Shown here: piece after piece, positions 26,917 through 34,408 of the stretch
How the letters are laid out: each line of letters begins with the position of its first letter
How positions within the stretch are numbered: the stretch's first letter is position 1
From: Bacillota bacterium
GTDB taxonomy: Bacteria > Bacillota > Clostridia > CAKSNL01 > HGM11501
DNA: 34,408 nt
Assembly: GCA_030705805.1 (NCBI GenBank)
Contig: JAUZPY010000010.1
Coordinates: forward strand, 1 to 34,408
Direction of reading: 5' to 3'
The notes under the pieces: model-generated
The model's database searches: none
Seen by the model: only the letters and a program-made list of their open reading frames with translations
Told to the model about the DNA's origin: nothing
Made by a program: the position numbers and the translations under genes

Positions 26917-29900
26917 TTATGATATTGTTATCTTAACCGTATTCTTTTTCCCACTACCGTCAGTTGCCGTCGCTGTTATCGTAACAGTACCTGACCTTCC
27001 GTTTAATGTAACAAGCCCGTTTTCATCTACAGTCGCATATCTTGTATTACTTACGCTCCACACCACATTATCTCCTGCCGGAGCCGGGTATGTTTTAGCG
27101 GTAAACTGAATCTCGGCATACTTGCTTTCAACAAAGGTCTGTCCTGTTACATCACTGTCATCCTTTAAAATTCTCACGCTTTCTGCTACCGGTCTTACTG
27201 TGATTACAGCAGAGCCTGATACATAGCTTCCGTCCTCAGAAGTTGCTGTTATGGTAACCGTTTCAATATTCTCTATTGATTTTGCCGTTACTTTTCCGGA
27301 GCTTGATACCGTTGCTAACTCAGCGTCTGATGAAGACCATGTGACTTTTTTGTTCGTGGCATTATCAGGAGAAGTGTTTGCTTGAAGGGTTATACTTTTC
27401 CCCTCCGCAACATCGGTTGACCCTGTAATATTTATTTCTTTTGCTAATATTGCTACATTAATTGTTACTGTTGCCGCTTTCTTAGAGCCGTCCGCAGCTG
27501 TAGCCGTGATCTTAACCATACCGGTTTTTAGTCCGGTCACAGTTACAAGTCCATTCTCATCCACTGTTGCAACCTTTGTGTTGTTTGAACTCCATGTGAC
27601 TAAATTCGATGCATCAGAAGGGTCGGTATATGCCCCCAGCTGCAGCGTTTTTTCCTCTGAACCTAAATCTATTCCAAGTGTGCCTCCCGTTACGTCTTTA
27701 TCACGGCAGGTTATATAAACTTTAGTTGTAACAGGCGTTACTTTGATTGTTATTTCGCCTTTAATGAAGCTTCCGTCAGCAGCAGTTGCTGTTATAACGG
27801 CAGAGCTTATCTGTGATACATTCCTCGCCGTTACCTTCCCTGAGCTTGATACAGTCGCTACGCTTGTATCTGATGATGTCCATGTAACCCTTTTGCTGGT
27901 AGCGCCCAGCGGCAGCACATCAGCAGTTAAAGTAATGCTTTTTCCTGCAGCAACCTCGGTGCTTCCCTCAATATTTATTTCCTTTACCAATGTAGCAACA
28001 TTTATTTCAACTGACGCATATTTTCTGCTACCGTCAGAAGCCAAAGCAGTAATTGTGACTTTTCCGGACTTTCCACCTATAGCTGTCACTAAACCGTTTT
28101 CATCAACAGCTGCAATTTTTGAGTTATTTGAACTCCATGTAACTAATTTTGAAGCGTCAGAAGGGTCAGTATATGCCCCCAGCTGCAGCGTTTTTTCCTC
28201 TGAACCTAAATCTATTCCAAGTGTGCCTCCCGTTACGTCTTTATCACAGCAGGTTATATAAACTTTAGTTGTAACAGGCATTACTGTAATTGTTATTTCA
28301 CCTTTAATGAAGCTTCCGTCAGCAGCGGTTGCTGTTATAACGGCTGAGCTTATCTTTGATACATTTTTTGCAGTTACTTTTCCTGAGCTTGATACAGTTG
28401 CTACACTTGTGTCCGATGATGTCCATGTAACCTTTTTGCTTGTAGCGCCCAGCGGCAGCATATTAGCAGTCAAGGTAATGCTTTTTCCGGCAGCAACCTC
28501 GGTGCTTCCCTCAATATTTATTTCCTTTACCAATGTTGCAATATTTATTTCTACTGAAGCATATTTTCCGCTGCCATCGGTTGCCAAAGCTTTAATTATG
28601 ACTTTACCGGACAGACCTAAAGCTGTTACTAAACCGTTTTTATCCACTGTTGCAATTTTACAGTTGCTTGAACTCCATGTAACATTATCACCGGCTTCAT
28701 CGGGGAATGTGTGAGCTTGCAGCATAATTGTTTTGTCCGGAAGTCCCATATCTATTGCAAGAGTTTTAACTATATCATTGCTGCTTTCTCCGGTAATATT
28801 TACGCTTGTGCATGTAGGGATTACGGTCATCTTTATTACGGCATTTATACTGTTATCGTCATAAGCATAAGCCGTAACAAAGCACTCACCTATAGCTCTT
28901 GCGGTAATTTTACCTGTTGAACTTACCTGTGCAACTCCTGTATCGGAAGATACCCATTTAACTGTTGTCTTGCCGGGGGCACCTGTTCCATTCTGAACCT
29001 GAATTACCGGGTACAGGCTTTGCCCCTTTGAAAGGGTAATCTCTGTTTTATCGGTAACCAGCCTTCTGTTTTTAACTGTTAAGGTACATGAGCTATGTAT
29101 GGTTCCGTTTTCAGCATATGCGGTAATTACCGCGCTGCCCGCTGCTTTTGCAGTTACTATGCCTTCCGAGCTAACACCGGCAACACTATCGTTACTGCTT
29201 GACCAAGTTATATTTTGGTTAGTTGCCTCATTTGGAAATGCAGAAGCATTAATTTTCTTTTCTTCTCCTGTTATAAGGCAAAGCCCTGTATTATCTAAAG
29301 CTACTTCCGTTACCGGAACATAAGCTGAAACCTCTACTGCTATTTGGGGAGTGGCATCTTTTGATATTCTGTAATAGATGCCGTTATTTTGCACTATTAC
29401 ATATTCGTCTGTTTTTTTGGTATTACCGTTAAAGCTGACCTGGTACTTATATTCCCCGGGCGTATGTTCCTTAAAGGTTTCACACGTAACCTTTTCAATA
29501 TTAAAGGTCACAGGTGAGTCATCTTCATCAACTGCACCTAAGGCAGAAGGAAAGAGCTTTAAAATATCGCTTTCAGAATATGTTTTGTTTACCTCAACTT
29601 TCAAAATATCGGAAAATCCCTTAATTTCTTTTGTTACTATCACTGTAACTTTGCCTTTTACGTCAGCTCCTAAAGTGTACTCATTGTTATTATATATAAT
29701 AGTCTTAATTTTTCCGTCAAGACTTATTGTTCCGTCAATTACCGCTTCAAAATTGTATGTACCTTCCGTATTATCAACAAAACCAACACTTTCCCAGTAC
29801 TTAACAGGTATTAAAATAGTATCTTCATCTGTAATGTTAGCTGTTAACTCAGTCGGAAGCAGAGAAGCAATTTCGGGTTTTGTCTTTCCTTTCTGAGCAT

Positions 29901-32139
29901 AGAAGGTTTCCGCATCATCTACCGATGCTATTTCAGCTAAAACCTTAACGACTGCCGTGAGTTTTATATCATCAGACAGCTTGTATTCATTTTCCCCATA
30001 AGAAAGCAGCAGGTAGCCGTCTTTTTCTTCGCCGTCAAAAGCAGCTGTAAAAGTATAATTTCCGGCTGCATTTGCATTGAAGTTATCACAAGTCCAGCTC
30101 TTCACACTCAATGTACCCTTATTGCCGCCTTTATCTAAAAACTCTATCGAATTAGGAAGCAGTGCTTTCGCTTGCTCAAAAGTTTTTCCGACACTTATTC
30201 TGACATCTGACACCGGGGTTAAGGAATCAATTACTCCTGTTACCCGGACTTGCCCGATAGCTATAGTATCTTGACAAAGCTTATAATATTTATCCCCGGC
30301 ACTTATTATTTTATAGCCGGCTTTTTCTTCTCCGCCAAATAATGCACTGAAATTATAAATTCCGGGAGCAAGTGAATTAAACCCGTCACAGCTCCATGAG
30401 GAAACAGTCAAGGTTACACTGTCGCCCTTGTTATCCAAAGCAGTTAAATCAGATGCAAGAATTTTAATTGCATCTTGGGCGCTTGTACACTGGTCAACTT
30501 TTATACCTTCAGCATTTTGAATTGAAGTAATGGTGCTTATAAGCGTTACTTTTTGCCCTGGCATTTTATCTAAGTTAATTTTATATCTAAACCCGTCTAC
30601 ACCCTCTGCAACAATATACTCGGGAGCAGTGTCTATTGCATTAAATGCAGCCTTAAAGATATAGTCGCCTTTAGAATTTGCATCGTAATTATCACAAGAC
30701 CATGATAAAGGTGTAAAGCTTACACTATTCCCGAATATGTCCTGAGCTTTTAGTGTATCGGAAAGCATCAAAATAGCAGCATCCTTGTCCGAAAAAACGT
30801 CGGCAAGCACCGTCTTTAGCTCATCAAATCCTTCTAGCTCGGCTATCGCTGATACCTTTACAGATACGGTAAGTTCATTAGGAACCTTATAATTTACACC
30901 GTTTACATTAACAACCGTGTAATTTTCAAATTTAGCAGTATCCCCGTCAAATGATGCCGTAAACTCAAAATTGCCGGCGGAATTGTTTACATAGCTTCCG
31001 CAGCTCCACCCTTTAACCGGTATACTTAAAGCATTATTACCCGAATCAAGCGCTCCTGCTGCGTTCGGCAAAAGATTAATCACATCCAAAACAGTTTTAC
31101 CTGCGTCAATTGTAACGTCATCTAATTTGTCAAAGCTTTTAATCAGTCCGTAAACATCGACGGAAACCCAAGCAGCAGCCGAATCTGGAAGACGGTATCT
31201 GACATTGCCTATTGTAATCAATTTATAATTTGCCCCTTGAGGTCTTTCTCCGTCAAAATCCGCGTTAAAGTCAAAAATGCCCGGTGTGCCTTCCGAAAAG
31301 TTTTTGCAGCTGAAAGAACTTATACCTATTGTCAGTGTGTTGCCCTGTGAATCCACAGCTGTTACGCTGCCGGGCAGCAAGGCAGCAATGTCAGAAAGCG
31401 TTGCTCCCACATCCGTGCTTACTTCCTGCAAACTATTAACAGTTTTAATTAAACCTGTAAATTCGATTTCCGCTGTAAGATTTATGCCTTTTACCCCATA
31501 CTTTTCATCAGGCAAAGTATCAACAGTTCCGGATACCGCTACCTTCCCCGGACTATCTAAACTTTTATTACTGTCCCATGTTACAGCGCTTACAGAAGAA
31601 GACCCGTCGACAAAAATCACTTTTACCTGCGAAGGCAACATTGAGGTATATTCTGTCCCTATGGGCACATCTTTTAAGCTGAATACAGCGTCTTCGCCTT
31701 CAATGGTTTTGACCGCTGTGATTATTTTTGACATATCATAGAAATAATTGCCCGGTATATCAGTACCACCAAGAATTGCTTTATAGGACGTGTAATCACT
31801 TTGAATAGCTGCATAAATTTCTTTCTTTATTGAAAAATCAAAAGAAAAGCTGCCGGACTCATCTGTCTGGAAAAAATTTATGTAGATAATATCATCTGGA
31901 TTTATCGTGTCAAAGTCAAAAGGTGAATTTGTTTTTGCAACAGTCACAGAGACCGTTTCGCCCTCTGCAGGGTTCGTTATCTTGCCTGTTAATGTAAAAA
32001 ACGTATAGGCGTCGTCCTCACCCTTAAAGTGAATGCTGACATTGCCGAAATCGGCAGCATCGGCAAAGGCTGAGAATGAAAAAGCAAAAAGCAATATTAA
32101 TAGCATCATAAGCAATGCAAATACAACTTTTTTGGACAT
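26917..32139 (-). CDS. Secreted 1740-aa repeat protein: signal peptide, Big_4-like region, seven ~102-aa repeats, about nine Big2 (bacterial Ig-like) domains
   Basis: N-terminus MSKKVVFALLMMLLILLFAFSFSAFADA; repeated VTWSSSDTSVATVSSSGKVTAK Big2 signature; RBS AGGAGG upstream of 32139. Confidence 0.9.
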   Translation of the reverse strand: MSKKVVFALLMMLLILLFAFSFSAFADAADFGNVSIHFKGEDDAYTFFTLTGKITNPAEGETVSVTVAKTNSPFDFDTINPDDIIYINFFQTDESGSFSFDFSIKKEIYAAIQSDYTSYKAILGGTDIPGNYFYDMSKIITAVKTIEGEDAVFSLKDVPIGTEYTSMLPSQVKVIFVDGSSSVSAVTWDSNKSLDSPGKVAVSGTVDTLPDEKYGVKGINLTAEIEFTGLIKTVNSLQEVSTDVGATLSDIAALLPGSVTAVDSQGNTLTIGISSFSCKNFSEGTPGIFDFNADFDGERPQGANYKLITIGNVRYRLPDSAAAWVSVDVYGLIKSFDKLDDVTIDAGKTVLDVINLLPNAAGALDSGNNALSIPVKGWSCGSYVNNSAGNFEFTASFDGDTAKFENYTVVNVNGVNYKVPNELTVSVKVSAIAELEGFDELKTVLADVFSDKDAAILMLSDTLKAQDIFGNSVSFTPLSWSCDNYDANSKGDYIFKAAFNAIDTAPEYIVAEGVDGFRYKINLDKMPGQKVTLISTITSIQNAEGIKVDQCTSAQDAIKILASDLTALDNKGDSVTLTVSSWSCDGFNSLAPGIYNFSALFGGEEKAGYKIISAGDKYYKLCQDTIAIGQVRVTGVIDSLTPVSDVRISVGKTFEQAKALLPNSIEFLDKGGNKGTLSVKSWTCDNFNANAAGNYTFTAAFDGEEKDGYLLLSYGENEYKLSDDIKLTAVVKVLAEIASVDDAETFYAQKGKTKPEIASLLPTELTANITDEDTILIPVKYWESVGFVDNTEGTYNFEAVIDGTISLDGKIKTIIYNNNEYTLGADVKGKVTVIVTKEIKGFSDILKVEVNKTYSESDILKLFPSALGAVDEDDSPVTFNIEKVTCETFKEHTPGEYKYQVSFNGNTKKTDEYVIVQNNGIYYRISKDATPQIAVEVSAYVPVTEVALDNTGLCLITGEEKKINASAFPNEATNQNITWSSSNDSVAGVSSEGIVTAKAAGSAVITAYAENGTIHSSCTLTVKNRRLVTDKTEITLSKGQSLYPVIQVQNGTGAPGKTTVKWVSSDTGVAQVSSTGKITARAIGECFVTAYAYDDNSINAVIKMTVIPTCTSVNITGESSNDIVKTLAIDMGLPDKTIMLQAHTFPDEAGDNVTWSSSNCKIATVDKNGLVTALGLSGKVIIKALATDGSGKYASVEINIATLVKEINIEGSTEVAAGKSITLTANMLPLGATSKKVTWTSSDTSVATVSSSGKVTAKNVSKISSAVITATAADGSFIKGEITITVMPVTTKVYITCCDKDVTGGTLGIDLGSEEKTLQLGAYTDPSDASKLVTWSSNNSKIAAVDENGLVTAIGGKSGKVTITALASDGSRKYASVEINVATLVKEINIEGSTEVAAGKSITLTADVLPLGATSKRVTWTSSDTSVATVSSSGKVTARNVSQISSAVITATAADGSFIKGEITIKVTPVTTKVYITCRDKDVTGGTLGIDLGSEEKTLQLGAYTDPSDASNLVTWSSNNTKVATVDENGLVTVTGLKTGMVKITATAADGSKKAATVTINVAILAKEINITGSTDVAEGKSITLQANTSPDNATNKKVTWSSSDAELATVSSSGKVTAKSIENIETVTITATSEDGSYVSGSAVITVRPVAESVRILKDDSDVTGQTFVESKYAEIQFTAKTYPAPAGDNVVWSVSNTRYATVDENGLVTLNGRSGTVTITATATDGSGKKNTVKITIS
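27600..28640. repeat. Near-identical 543-bp tandem unit (two copies) within the Big2 array
   Basis: TGCCCCCAGCTGCAGCGTTTTTTCCTCTGAACC.. recurs at 27631 and 28174 (543-bp offset = 181 aa), and flanking sequence is almost identical. Confidence 0.9.
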
Positions 32140-32177: not shown

Positions 32178-32206
32178 ATTCTATCATTTTTATCTATAAT
32201 TGTCAA
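32178..32206 (-). promoter_or_regulatory. Strong SigA-type promoter for the repeat protein / hprK operon
   Basis: Minus strand TTGACA (32201-32206) - 17 bp - TAGAAT (32178-32183). Confidence 0.75.
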
Positions 32207-32421
32207 TTTATATTATTAATGCTTTCTTTAATATTTCTATAAGCTATATTTTTTTAATTTTTGTTTTATGCTTTTTATTTTTATGCACTCTATGCATAGA
32301 CCAATCTCCCAAATAAGAAAAAACATTCGTGTTTTATGTCAGATTTTAAATATATATTTTAAGAATGTCGAATTTTGTTTTTTTATTGGACTAATTCCTT
32401 TGTTTTCAATGGGTTTAAAAG

Positions 32422-32516
32422 TTATCCACAACCTATTTCATTTCAACTCGTTTAGATGTGGATAAGGTGCATAAATCGGTTGATAACTGCAATTTCAGGG
32501 GTTTTATTGGGGATAA
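32422..32516. promoter_or_regulatory. DnaA-box cluster (two perfect inverted 9-mers plus one near match)
   Basis: TTATCCACA 32422-32430; TGTGGATAA 32457-32465; TGGGGATAA 32508-32516 (1 mismatch). Confidence 0.55.
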
Positions 32517-32648
32517 AACCATCTTAAAAATAAATTTAGATTAAATGATAAATGTAAATTCCTGACATTTTTGTTAGAATTAGATTATGATTTTATGCGT
32601 GAAAGGAAATTTTTTACAGTATAAAACTATTGCTGGAAATTATTAAAC

Positions 32649-32677
32649 TTGTAATTTTTTAAAATTTATGCTATAAT
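32649..32677 (+). promoter_or_regulatory. rnpB promoter
   Basis: TTGTAA (32649-32654) - 17 bp - TATAAT (32672-32677), about 8 nt before the RNA 5' end. Confidence 0.75.
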
Positions 32678-32684
32678 ATTAATT

Positions 32685-33092
32685 GAGCAAGACAGACAAT
32701 CGCGGTGCGCATATGCGCAATGAGGAAAGTCCGGGCTCCGGGGCAAGGATGCCGGGTAACTCCCGGTGAAGGTAACTTTAAGGAAAGTGCAACAGAAATA
32801 TACCGCCCTTAAGCATAAGAGAGTTAAAGCCGCATAGTTTAAAAAACGTAAAAGTGTGCTGTGCGTGTTTGATTCTCTTATGCTTAGGGGTAAGGTTGGA
32901 ATGGTGAGGTAAGAGCTCACCGGCGCCTGGGTAATCAGGCGGCCATGTAAACCCCATCCGGAGCAACGCTGGCGTGGCGGAAAATGTTATAGACGGCCCG
33001 TCTCTTTTTCGGTCAGCGGCTTGAGCCATGCAGAGATGTACGGCCTAGATAGATGATTGTCCAACGACAGAACCCGGCTTATAGGCTTGCTC
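32685..33092 (+). ncRNA. rnpB: RNase P RNA (class A)
   Basis: Conserved GAGGAAAGTCCGGGCTCC and ACAGAACCCGGCTTATAGG (P4); P1 pairing GAGCAAG (32685-32691)/CTTGCTC (33086-33092); GGTGAGGTAAGAGCTCACCGG. Confidence 0.96.
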
Positions 33093-33096
33093 GTAA

Positions 33097-33132
33097 AAAA
33101 GAGGAGAAGCATAATTGCTTCTCCTCTTTTTT
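33097..33132 (+). terminator. rnpB intrinsic terminator
   Basis: GAGGAGAAGC ataatt GCTTCTCCTC TTTTTT. Confidence 0.93.
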
Positions 33133-33151
33133 ATATTTAGTGCTTTAGCAA

Positions 33152-33210
33152 AAAAAGGCGACCGAAGTCGCCTTTTTAATAACCGCCCGCATAGCGGGGC
33201 GGTTATTAAA
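33152..33210. repeat. Two further stacked hairpins: GGCGAC cgaa GTCGCC with A/T flanks, and a 14-bp-arm inverted repeat TTTAATAACCGCCC..GGGCGGTTATTAAA
   Basis: Read directly from sequence: 33157-33172 and 33175-33210. Confidence 0.8.
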
Positions 33211-33278
33211 ACTTAAGTCGGAGTATCCACCTCGTGCTATAATAAGGATGTTCAAGTCAAATTATAAAACAAATAGTT

Positions 33279-33304: not shown

Positions 33305-34408
33305 TCATAGTTTTATTCTTCTTACGGAAAGTGAATTGAGTACTACGCTGACTGAGCTTGCAGCCATAGCCGCCGCTGCGATTACAGGGCTTAAAAAGCC
33401 TAAGGCAGCTATCGGAATTCCAATAATGTTATAGAAAAATGCCCAGAACAGATTTTGCCTGATTTTTCGCATAGTAGCTCTGGCCAGTGCTACCGCTCTC
33501 GCTACGTCCTTCATATCGCTCTTCATTAAAACTACGTCACCGGTTTCAACCGCCACGTCAGTTCCCGAACCGACAGCTATACCTATATCGGCTTCAGCCA
33601 GAGCCGGAGCATCGTTTATACCGTCACCTGCCATTGCAACAATAAAGCCGTTATTCTTTAATTCCTTGATTTTATCTGCCTTTACGTCGGGCAGCGCTCT
33701 TGGAATGATATTAGTAATGCCTGCAATCTTCCCTATAGCCCCGGCTGTGCTGGCATTATCCCCGGTTAAGAGATAAGATACTATGCCCATACTTTTAAGC
33801 CTTTCAACAGCCTCTTTGGAGCTTTCCCGCACTTTATCGGATACTGCGATTATCCCGACAAACCTGCCATCCTTGGAAACGCACATAACAGTTTTTCCGC
33901 TTTGTTCATATTCATCGGTTTTGGCGAGCGTTACATCTGTGCCTTCCTTGGCAAGGAAGTCCTTTGTACCTATAAGAACTTTACTGCCGCCTACCACTGC
34001 GGATATTCCCATGCCTGCATGAGCTTTAAAATTCTGGATCTCCGATAAGCTGCCTAAGCCTTTCCCGTATTCAGCAACAGCCTGACCCAAAGGATGCTCG
34101 GACTTGGATTCTGCGGATGCGGCCAAAAGTACCAGTTCTTTTTCGTCAATTCCGACAGGCGAAACATCTGTTACCTCCAGTTTTCCTTCGGTTAGTGTAC
34201 CTGTTTTATCAAAAACCACCGTATCTACTTTTGATAATCTCTCAAGATGTTCTCCGCCTTTAATCAGTATGCCGTGCTGGGCGCCTTTTCCTGTGCCGAC
34301 CATTATTGCCGTCGGCGTTGCAAGACCTAATGCGCAGGGACACGAAATAACTAAAACAGCTACTCCGTGCATGACGGCAGCTTCACCTGTTGCACCTGCT
34401 AAAAGCCA
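33305..34408 (-). CDS. Heavy-metal (CPC-type, likely copper) P-type ATPase, C-terminal part; truncated by the window edge
   Basis: [70 protein letters not shown]. The frame stays open through 34408 ([15 protein letters not shown]..), so ATG 34372 is internal. Confidence 0.95.

Follow-up and report, generated by a model that had tools for sequence, protein, structure and literature searches.

An intergenic element next to rnpB in a Bacillota genome is probably a DnaA-box cluster external to oriC that, judging from its box sequences and by analogy with Bacillus subtilis, would bind DnaA cooperatively and limit the DnaA free for initiation. Such a cluster would probably hold DnaA back, helping to time replication, rather than being an origin. 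The element lies in the window, by which is meant the whole 34,408-nucleotide stretch of DNA that was analysed; similar clusters occur about once per genome, away from the origin, in many Firmicutes. The initial annotation had offered a DnaA-titrating or regulatory site among several possible functions, and this is the reading favoured by the boxes, their geometry, their conservation and their changing loci; a near-single copy number and a separate oriC with DnaA-trios were likewise observed. DnaA binding, a preference for ATP-DnaA, and an effect on the timing of initiation are expected from work on B. subtilis and from the box sequence.

Organisation of the box cluster

The boxes occupy a 544-bp non-coding gap between the start of a minus-strand Big_2 ORF (26917-32139) and rnpB, with an A+T content of 0.63 over the boxes and 0.77-0.82 in the flanks, in agreement with the AT-rich non-coding setting originally described. 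The inverted pair of perfect boxes (A and B, 26 bp apart) and the one-mismatch box (E) recorded in the initial annotation were all recovered; its list was nevertheless incomplete, as two weaker in-register boxes, C and D, had been missed, and it is from these that the strongest comparative signal comes. Five boxes (A-E) are therefore clustered in intergenic DNA at 32422-32516, in keeping with a DnaA-box cluster (DBC) defined by several boxes within about 100 bp. The core spans 32457-32488 and consists of the three same-strand boxes B, C, and D, with starts at 0, 9, and 21 bp; in the window copy, C, D, and E deviate from the perfect box. In the following list, G001 and G002 are relatives from the same family.

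32414..32543 (about 130 bp), no strand: conserved element of the intergenic gap, with 75% identity across 131 bp to a non-orthologous place in G001 (contig C9, 26881-27011)
32422..32430, plus strand: DnaA box A, TTATCCACA, in opposite orientation to the other boxes; kept as TTTTCCACA in G001 and as TTATCCACA in G002
32457..32465, minus strand: DnaA box B, TTATCCACA, which opens the tandem array
32458..32488, plus strand: stretch matching the three-box core pattern GTGGAWAANGTGNAWAANNNNGTTNATAACT
32466..32474, minus strand: DnaA box C, TTATGCACC, abutting box B (9-bp spacing)
32478..32486, minus strand: DnaA box D, TTATCAACC, at a 12-bp spacing from box C and followed by an invariant CT on the plus strand
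32508..32516, minus strand: DnaA box E, TTATCCCCA, one mismatch, downstream and in the same orientation as B-D
32178..32206, minus strand: promoter-like TTGACA-17-TAGAAT (consensus match only), before the Big_2 surface-protein gene and about 215 bp from box A
32649..32677, plus strand: promoter-like TTGTAA-17-TATAAT (consensus match only), just before rnpB and about 130 bp beyond box E
32684..33097, plus strand: rnpB (class A RNA of bacterial RNase P), adjoining the element; adjacency not conserved

The Big_2 ORF encodes 1740 amino acids with nine Big_2 domains and heads a same-strand run of hprK, a ROK kinase gene, murB, rapZ, whiA, and dnaE. Beyond rnpB, three consecutive hairpin-forming inverted repeats were seen by eye at 33095-33215, and the contig ends in a truncated heavy-metal P-type ATPase gene (33305-34372, minus strand). 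The product of the latter is 49% identical to a P-type ATPase encoded beside an array in Monoglobus (L168), where the orientation relative to the array differs; the shared neighbour may be a coincidence.

Two exact 9-mers this close had been judged unlikely by chance in 34 kb, and this holds for their closeness more than for their number. The window contains two exact boxes where 0.35 are expected, and 5 of 100 window shuffles also reach two, which is only mildly unusual. Among the 23 TTATCCACA sites of the 2.016-Mb genome, however, the window pair is the only close one, and simple arithmetic from these figures predicts about 0.009 pairs within 35 bp. The genome-wide scan of this 9-mer, which the initial annotation had suggested, revealed no enrichment in the organism's own genome (23 sites, whereas the reversed control has 30).

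Conservation within the family

When the gap was compared with relatives by BLAST, positions 32414-32543 matched G001 (E = 3e-15) at a site away from the rnpB locus of that genome, and the alignment retains minus-strand boxes C and D in addition to the inverted pair. Boxes A, B, and C of the G001 copy (L056:6900-7010) have all changed from the TTAT to the TTTT type, as if the DnaA-box preference had drifted in that lineage. A similar set of boxes, with two mismatches to the core pattern, is found at yet another locus in G002, a member of a third genus, where the inverted box A is preceded by the same AAAAG as in the window. The element was not detected in G003, a family member whose genome is 75% complete. 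Conservation in relatives, whose absence the initial annotation had named as a refutation, was thus found in three of four family genomes, with each copy at a different locus: the neighbours are a MATE transporter gene and a GH28-like gene in G001 and a TIM-barrel gene in G002, and rnpB lies elsewhere in both.

A spacing-specific array in Clostridia and Bacilli

An initial array pattern with a fixed inverted partner was abandoned, since outside the family it retrieved mostly other box clusters with two to three mismatches; dropping the inverted box gave a clean signal. The resulting core pattern has at least 119 exact-match stretches in a scan of GTDB genomes, 80 of which were listed as loci, and most of the listed matches come from Clostridia and Bacilli, a few records being from Armatimonadetes and Aerophobetes. 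Alignment of 68 non-redundant copies yielded the consensus CTGTGGATAA-TGTGGATAA-NTC-TGTTRATAACT. Even in columns on which the pattern sets no condition, these copies show the letters of a DnaA box (T in 94% before box B and in 88% at the B/C junction, G in 70% within box C, and T in 80% before box D), and beyond the array conservation drops sharply. The flanking boxes recur less regularly: a good same-orientation box lies 31-66 bp downstream in 23 of the 68 relatives, where shuffling predicts 0.5, and 14 have an upstream box in inverted orientation, where 0.8 would be expected.

With one mismatch allowed, 381 genomes of the class contained 60 matches in 59 genomes, that is, one per genome except for a single genome with two. 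Neither the reversed pattern nor a pattern with one base added between boxes B and C gave any match in the same 381 genomes. The array is not universal, as 322 of these genomes have no match to the pattern; it is, however, a real, spacing-specific, and essentially single-copy feature. No match was obtained in a plasmid collection, and a literature search of partial coverage found no description of a conserved array of this kind.

Genomic positions of the arrays

Among the 80 listed loci, 31 flank tsaD (gcp), whose 3′ end is the most frequent position, followed by comF/hpf/secA (15), sigH (9, after pta-ackA), and trmB (4); two lie in the prmC-tsaC gap, one in the dnaA-dnaN gap, and 18 elsewhere. 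In Clostridioides difficile (L155:4459-4489) and Paraclostridium (L118:762-792), the array is located upstream of hpf-secA. Four Bacillaceae carry it downstream of tsaD/gcp facing an ABC-F gene, between convergent gene ends, and two Listeria carry it between prmC and tsaC, upstream of tsaC (ywlC). Through these six genomes, the tsaD and tsaC loci can be matched to two DnaA regions of B. subtilis, one downstream of gcp/ydiF and the other upstream of ywlC, so that related arrays occur at loci bound by DnaA in that organism. Both regions are among its strongest in vitro DnaA sites, with a Kd for ATP-DnaA of 0.15 uM at gcp/ydiF and 0.25 uM at ywlC, and at low DnaA concentration the recovery of gcp/ydiF DNA was 16-fold better with ATP-DnaA than with ADP-DnaA (PMC4447404).

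In contiguous genomes, the distance between array and dnaA, calculated from rounded genome sizes, is about 5-16% of the chromosome in seven cases (G300, G072, G242, G135, G200, G365, and G027, the last four from one genus) and about 44% in another (G151), so that closeness to the origin is not a consistent property of the array; the window's own assembly consists of 152 contigs.

The origin of replication

The initial annotation had also considered that the boxes might belong to the actual origin, and had called for dnaA and dnaN to be located. Both genes were found on contig C66, where dnaA is followed by dnaN and has yidC, jag, and mnmE on its opposite flank, and the window is contig C2; the array thus lies outside the dnaA-dnaN locus, the usual place of the origin in Firmicutes. 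The dnaA-dnaN gap of this genome reads TTATCAACA-AATTCACCG-GCTC-TACTATTACTAATAA, that is, tandem boxes followed by DnaA-trios, in the manner of the basal unwinding system (BUS) of bacterial origins (PMC8287927). Beside the boxes, three TAN trios were counted in this oriC, none in the window, none in G001, and one in G002. The window was therefore rejected as oriC, and a replication origin of any kind, secondary ones included, is very improbable here, even though the boxes adjoin A+T-rich DNA and one array does form part of an origin. That array, in Lentilactobacillus laojiaonis (L121:6838-6868), constitutes the box part of the dnaA-dnaN origin and is directly followed by four DnaA-trios, a number reached by no other collected array; a dnaA-dnaN position is otherwise absent from the 80 listed arrays. 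The Lentilactobacillus case suggests a common design for off-origin arrays and the boxes of origins. The window array has the tandem DnaA boxes of a BUS but differs from it in location and in the absence of trios, and because trios are absent (window, G001) or single (G002), the array looks like the box portion of an origin with no unwinding portion attached.

Alternative functions

DnaA could instead act here as a transcription factor for rnpB or for the Big_2 operon running to dnaE, coupling their expression to the DnaA level. The cluster does sit between two promoter-like sites, and in B. subtilis some genes, ywlC and sda among them, are repressed or activated by DnaA at such clusters (PMC4447404); each promoter-like site, however, is separated from the boxes by more than 100 bp. 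DnaA control of the operon, as suggested in the initial annotation, is weakened further by the different neighbours in G001 and G002, by the prevalence of the tsaD 3′ end among listed relatives, and by the convergent gene ends that enclose the Bacillaceae arrays. Local gene control, although possible, does not account for an element that persists while its neighbours change, and as the explanation of the element it is rather unlikely. It is extremely improbable that the inverted pair represents nothing more than the two arms of an RNA hairpin (a small RNA, leader, or terminator). The two boxes do form a perfect 9-bp inverted repeat, and a 161-nt segment folds with a z-score of -2.4, but folds of tighter, 106-nt segments from the three family members show no greater stability than shuffles (z = -0.85, -0.63, and -0.34; the G001 segment omits the initial base of box A), and no Rfam match was obtained up to an E value of 1. 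Furthermore, box C of G001, which lies outside the stem, underwent the same kind of change as the arms, and an inverted partner at the same offset occurs in none of the 68 relatives, all of which keep the tandem array. The hairpin was rejected on these grounds.

A different possibility is that the array switches the state of DnaA, changing its bound nucleotide rather than merely holding the protein, as do datA and DARS in Escherichia coli. The strict 9-bp spacing (60 matches against none with an added base), the near-single copy number, and the independence from neighbouring genes are all compatible with such a switch. Control in B. subtilis is, however, placed at DnaA oligomerisation and not at its nucleotide state (reviewed in PMC5295017), and a cooperative binding site would demand fixed spacing equally, which leaves a state switch improbable. 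The E. coli loci datA, DARS1, and DARS2 are likewise non-coding, single-copy DnaA-box clusters of constrained arrangement that control DnaA (PMC4585315), and their likeness to the array is one of arrangement. An analogue of these loci would be expected to stimulate ATP hydrolysis or nucleotide exchange on DnaA.

A model for DnaA control

The DnaA-box cluster outside oriC remains the preferred reading. By analogy with B. subtilis, DnaA, probably in its ATP form, would bind cooperatively to the three same-strand boxes, with the same-orientation box on one side and the inverted box on the other helping it to bind. The element is not expected to open DNA because no DnaA-trios stand beside the tandem pair. 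Passage of the replication fork would double the cluster and thus provide added DnaA sites after initiation, and the DnaA held there would leave less of the protein free to start replication at oriC. B. subtilis lacking its six oriC-external clusters initiates early (PMC5295017; PMC13220808).

The DBCs of B. subtilis (Okumura et al. 2012, as cited in PMC5295017 and PMC13220808) are likewise non-coding DnaA-box clusters away from oriC, and the DnaA-bound gcp and ywlC places correspond to array sites in Bacillaceae and Listeria. They differ in being six in number, whereas the present arrays, recognised from sequence, amount to one three-box match per genome, and the window locus is a different one. 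Titration by itself would not call for strict geometry, and the element may therefore serve a more specific function. Its fixed 9-bp spacing points to an oligomer of defined form rather than to loose titration alone, so that an action like that of datA or DARS is conceivable. A broader proposal, tentative and on balance unlikely, is that this near-single-copy 9/12-bp array, which changes location while conserving its sequence in Clostridia and Bacilli alike, represents a Firmicutes element dedicated to DnaA control that would assemble a defined off-origin DnaA oligomer and possibly switch the nucleotide state of DnaA in the manner of the E. coli loci.

How DnaA is limited is less clear in Firmicutes than in E. 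coli. A usually single-copy array of fixed geometry that keeps its sequence and changes its neighbours would make DnaA control separable from the regulation of any particular gene. In species with one array, it offers a simple target for deletion, and its pattern provides a sequence signature with which such clusters may be found across the phylum.
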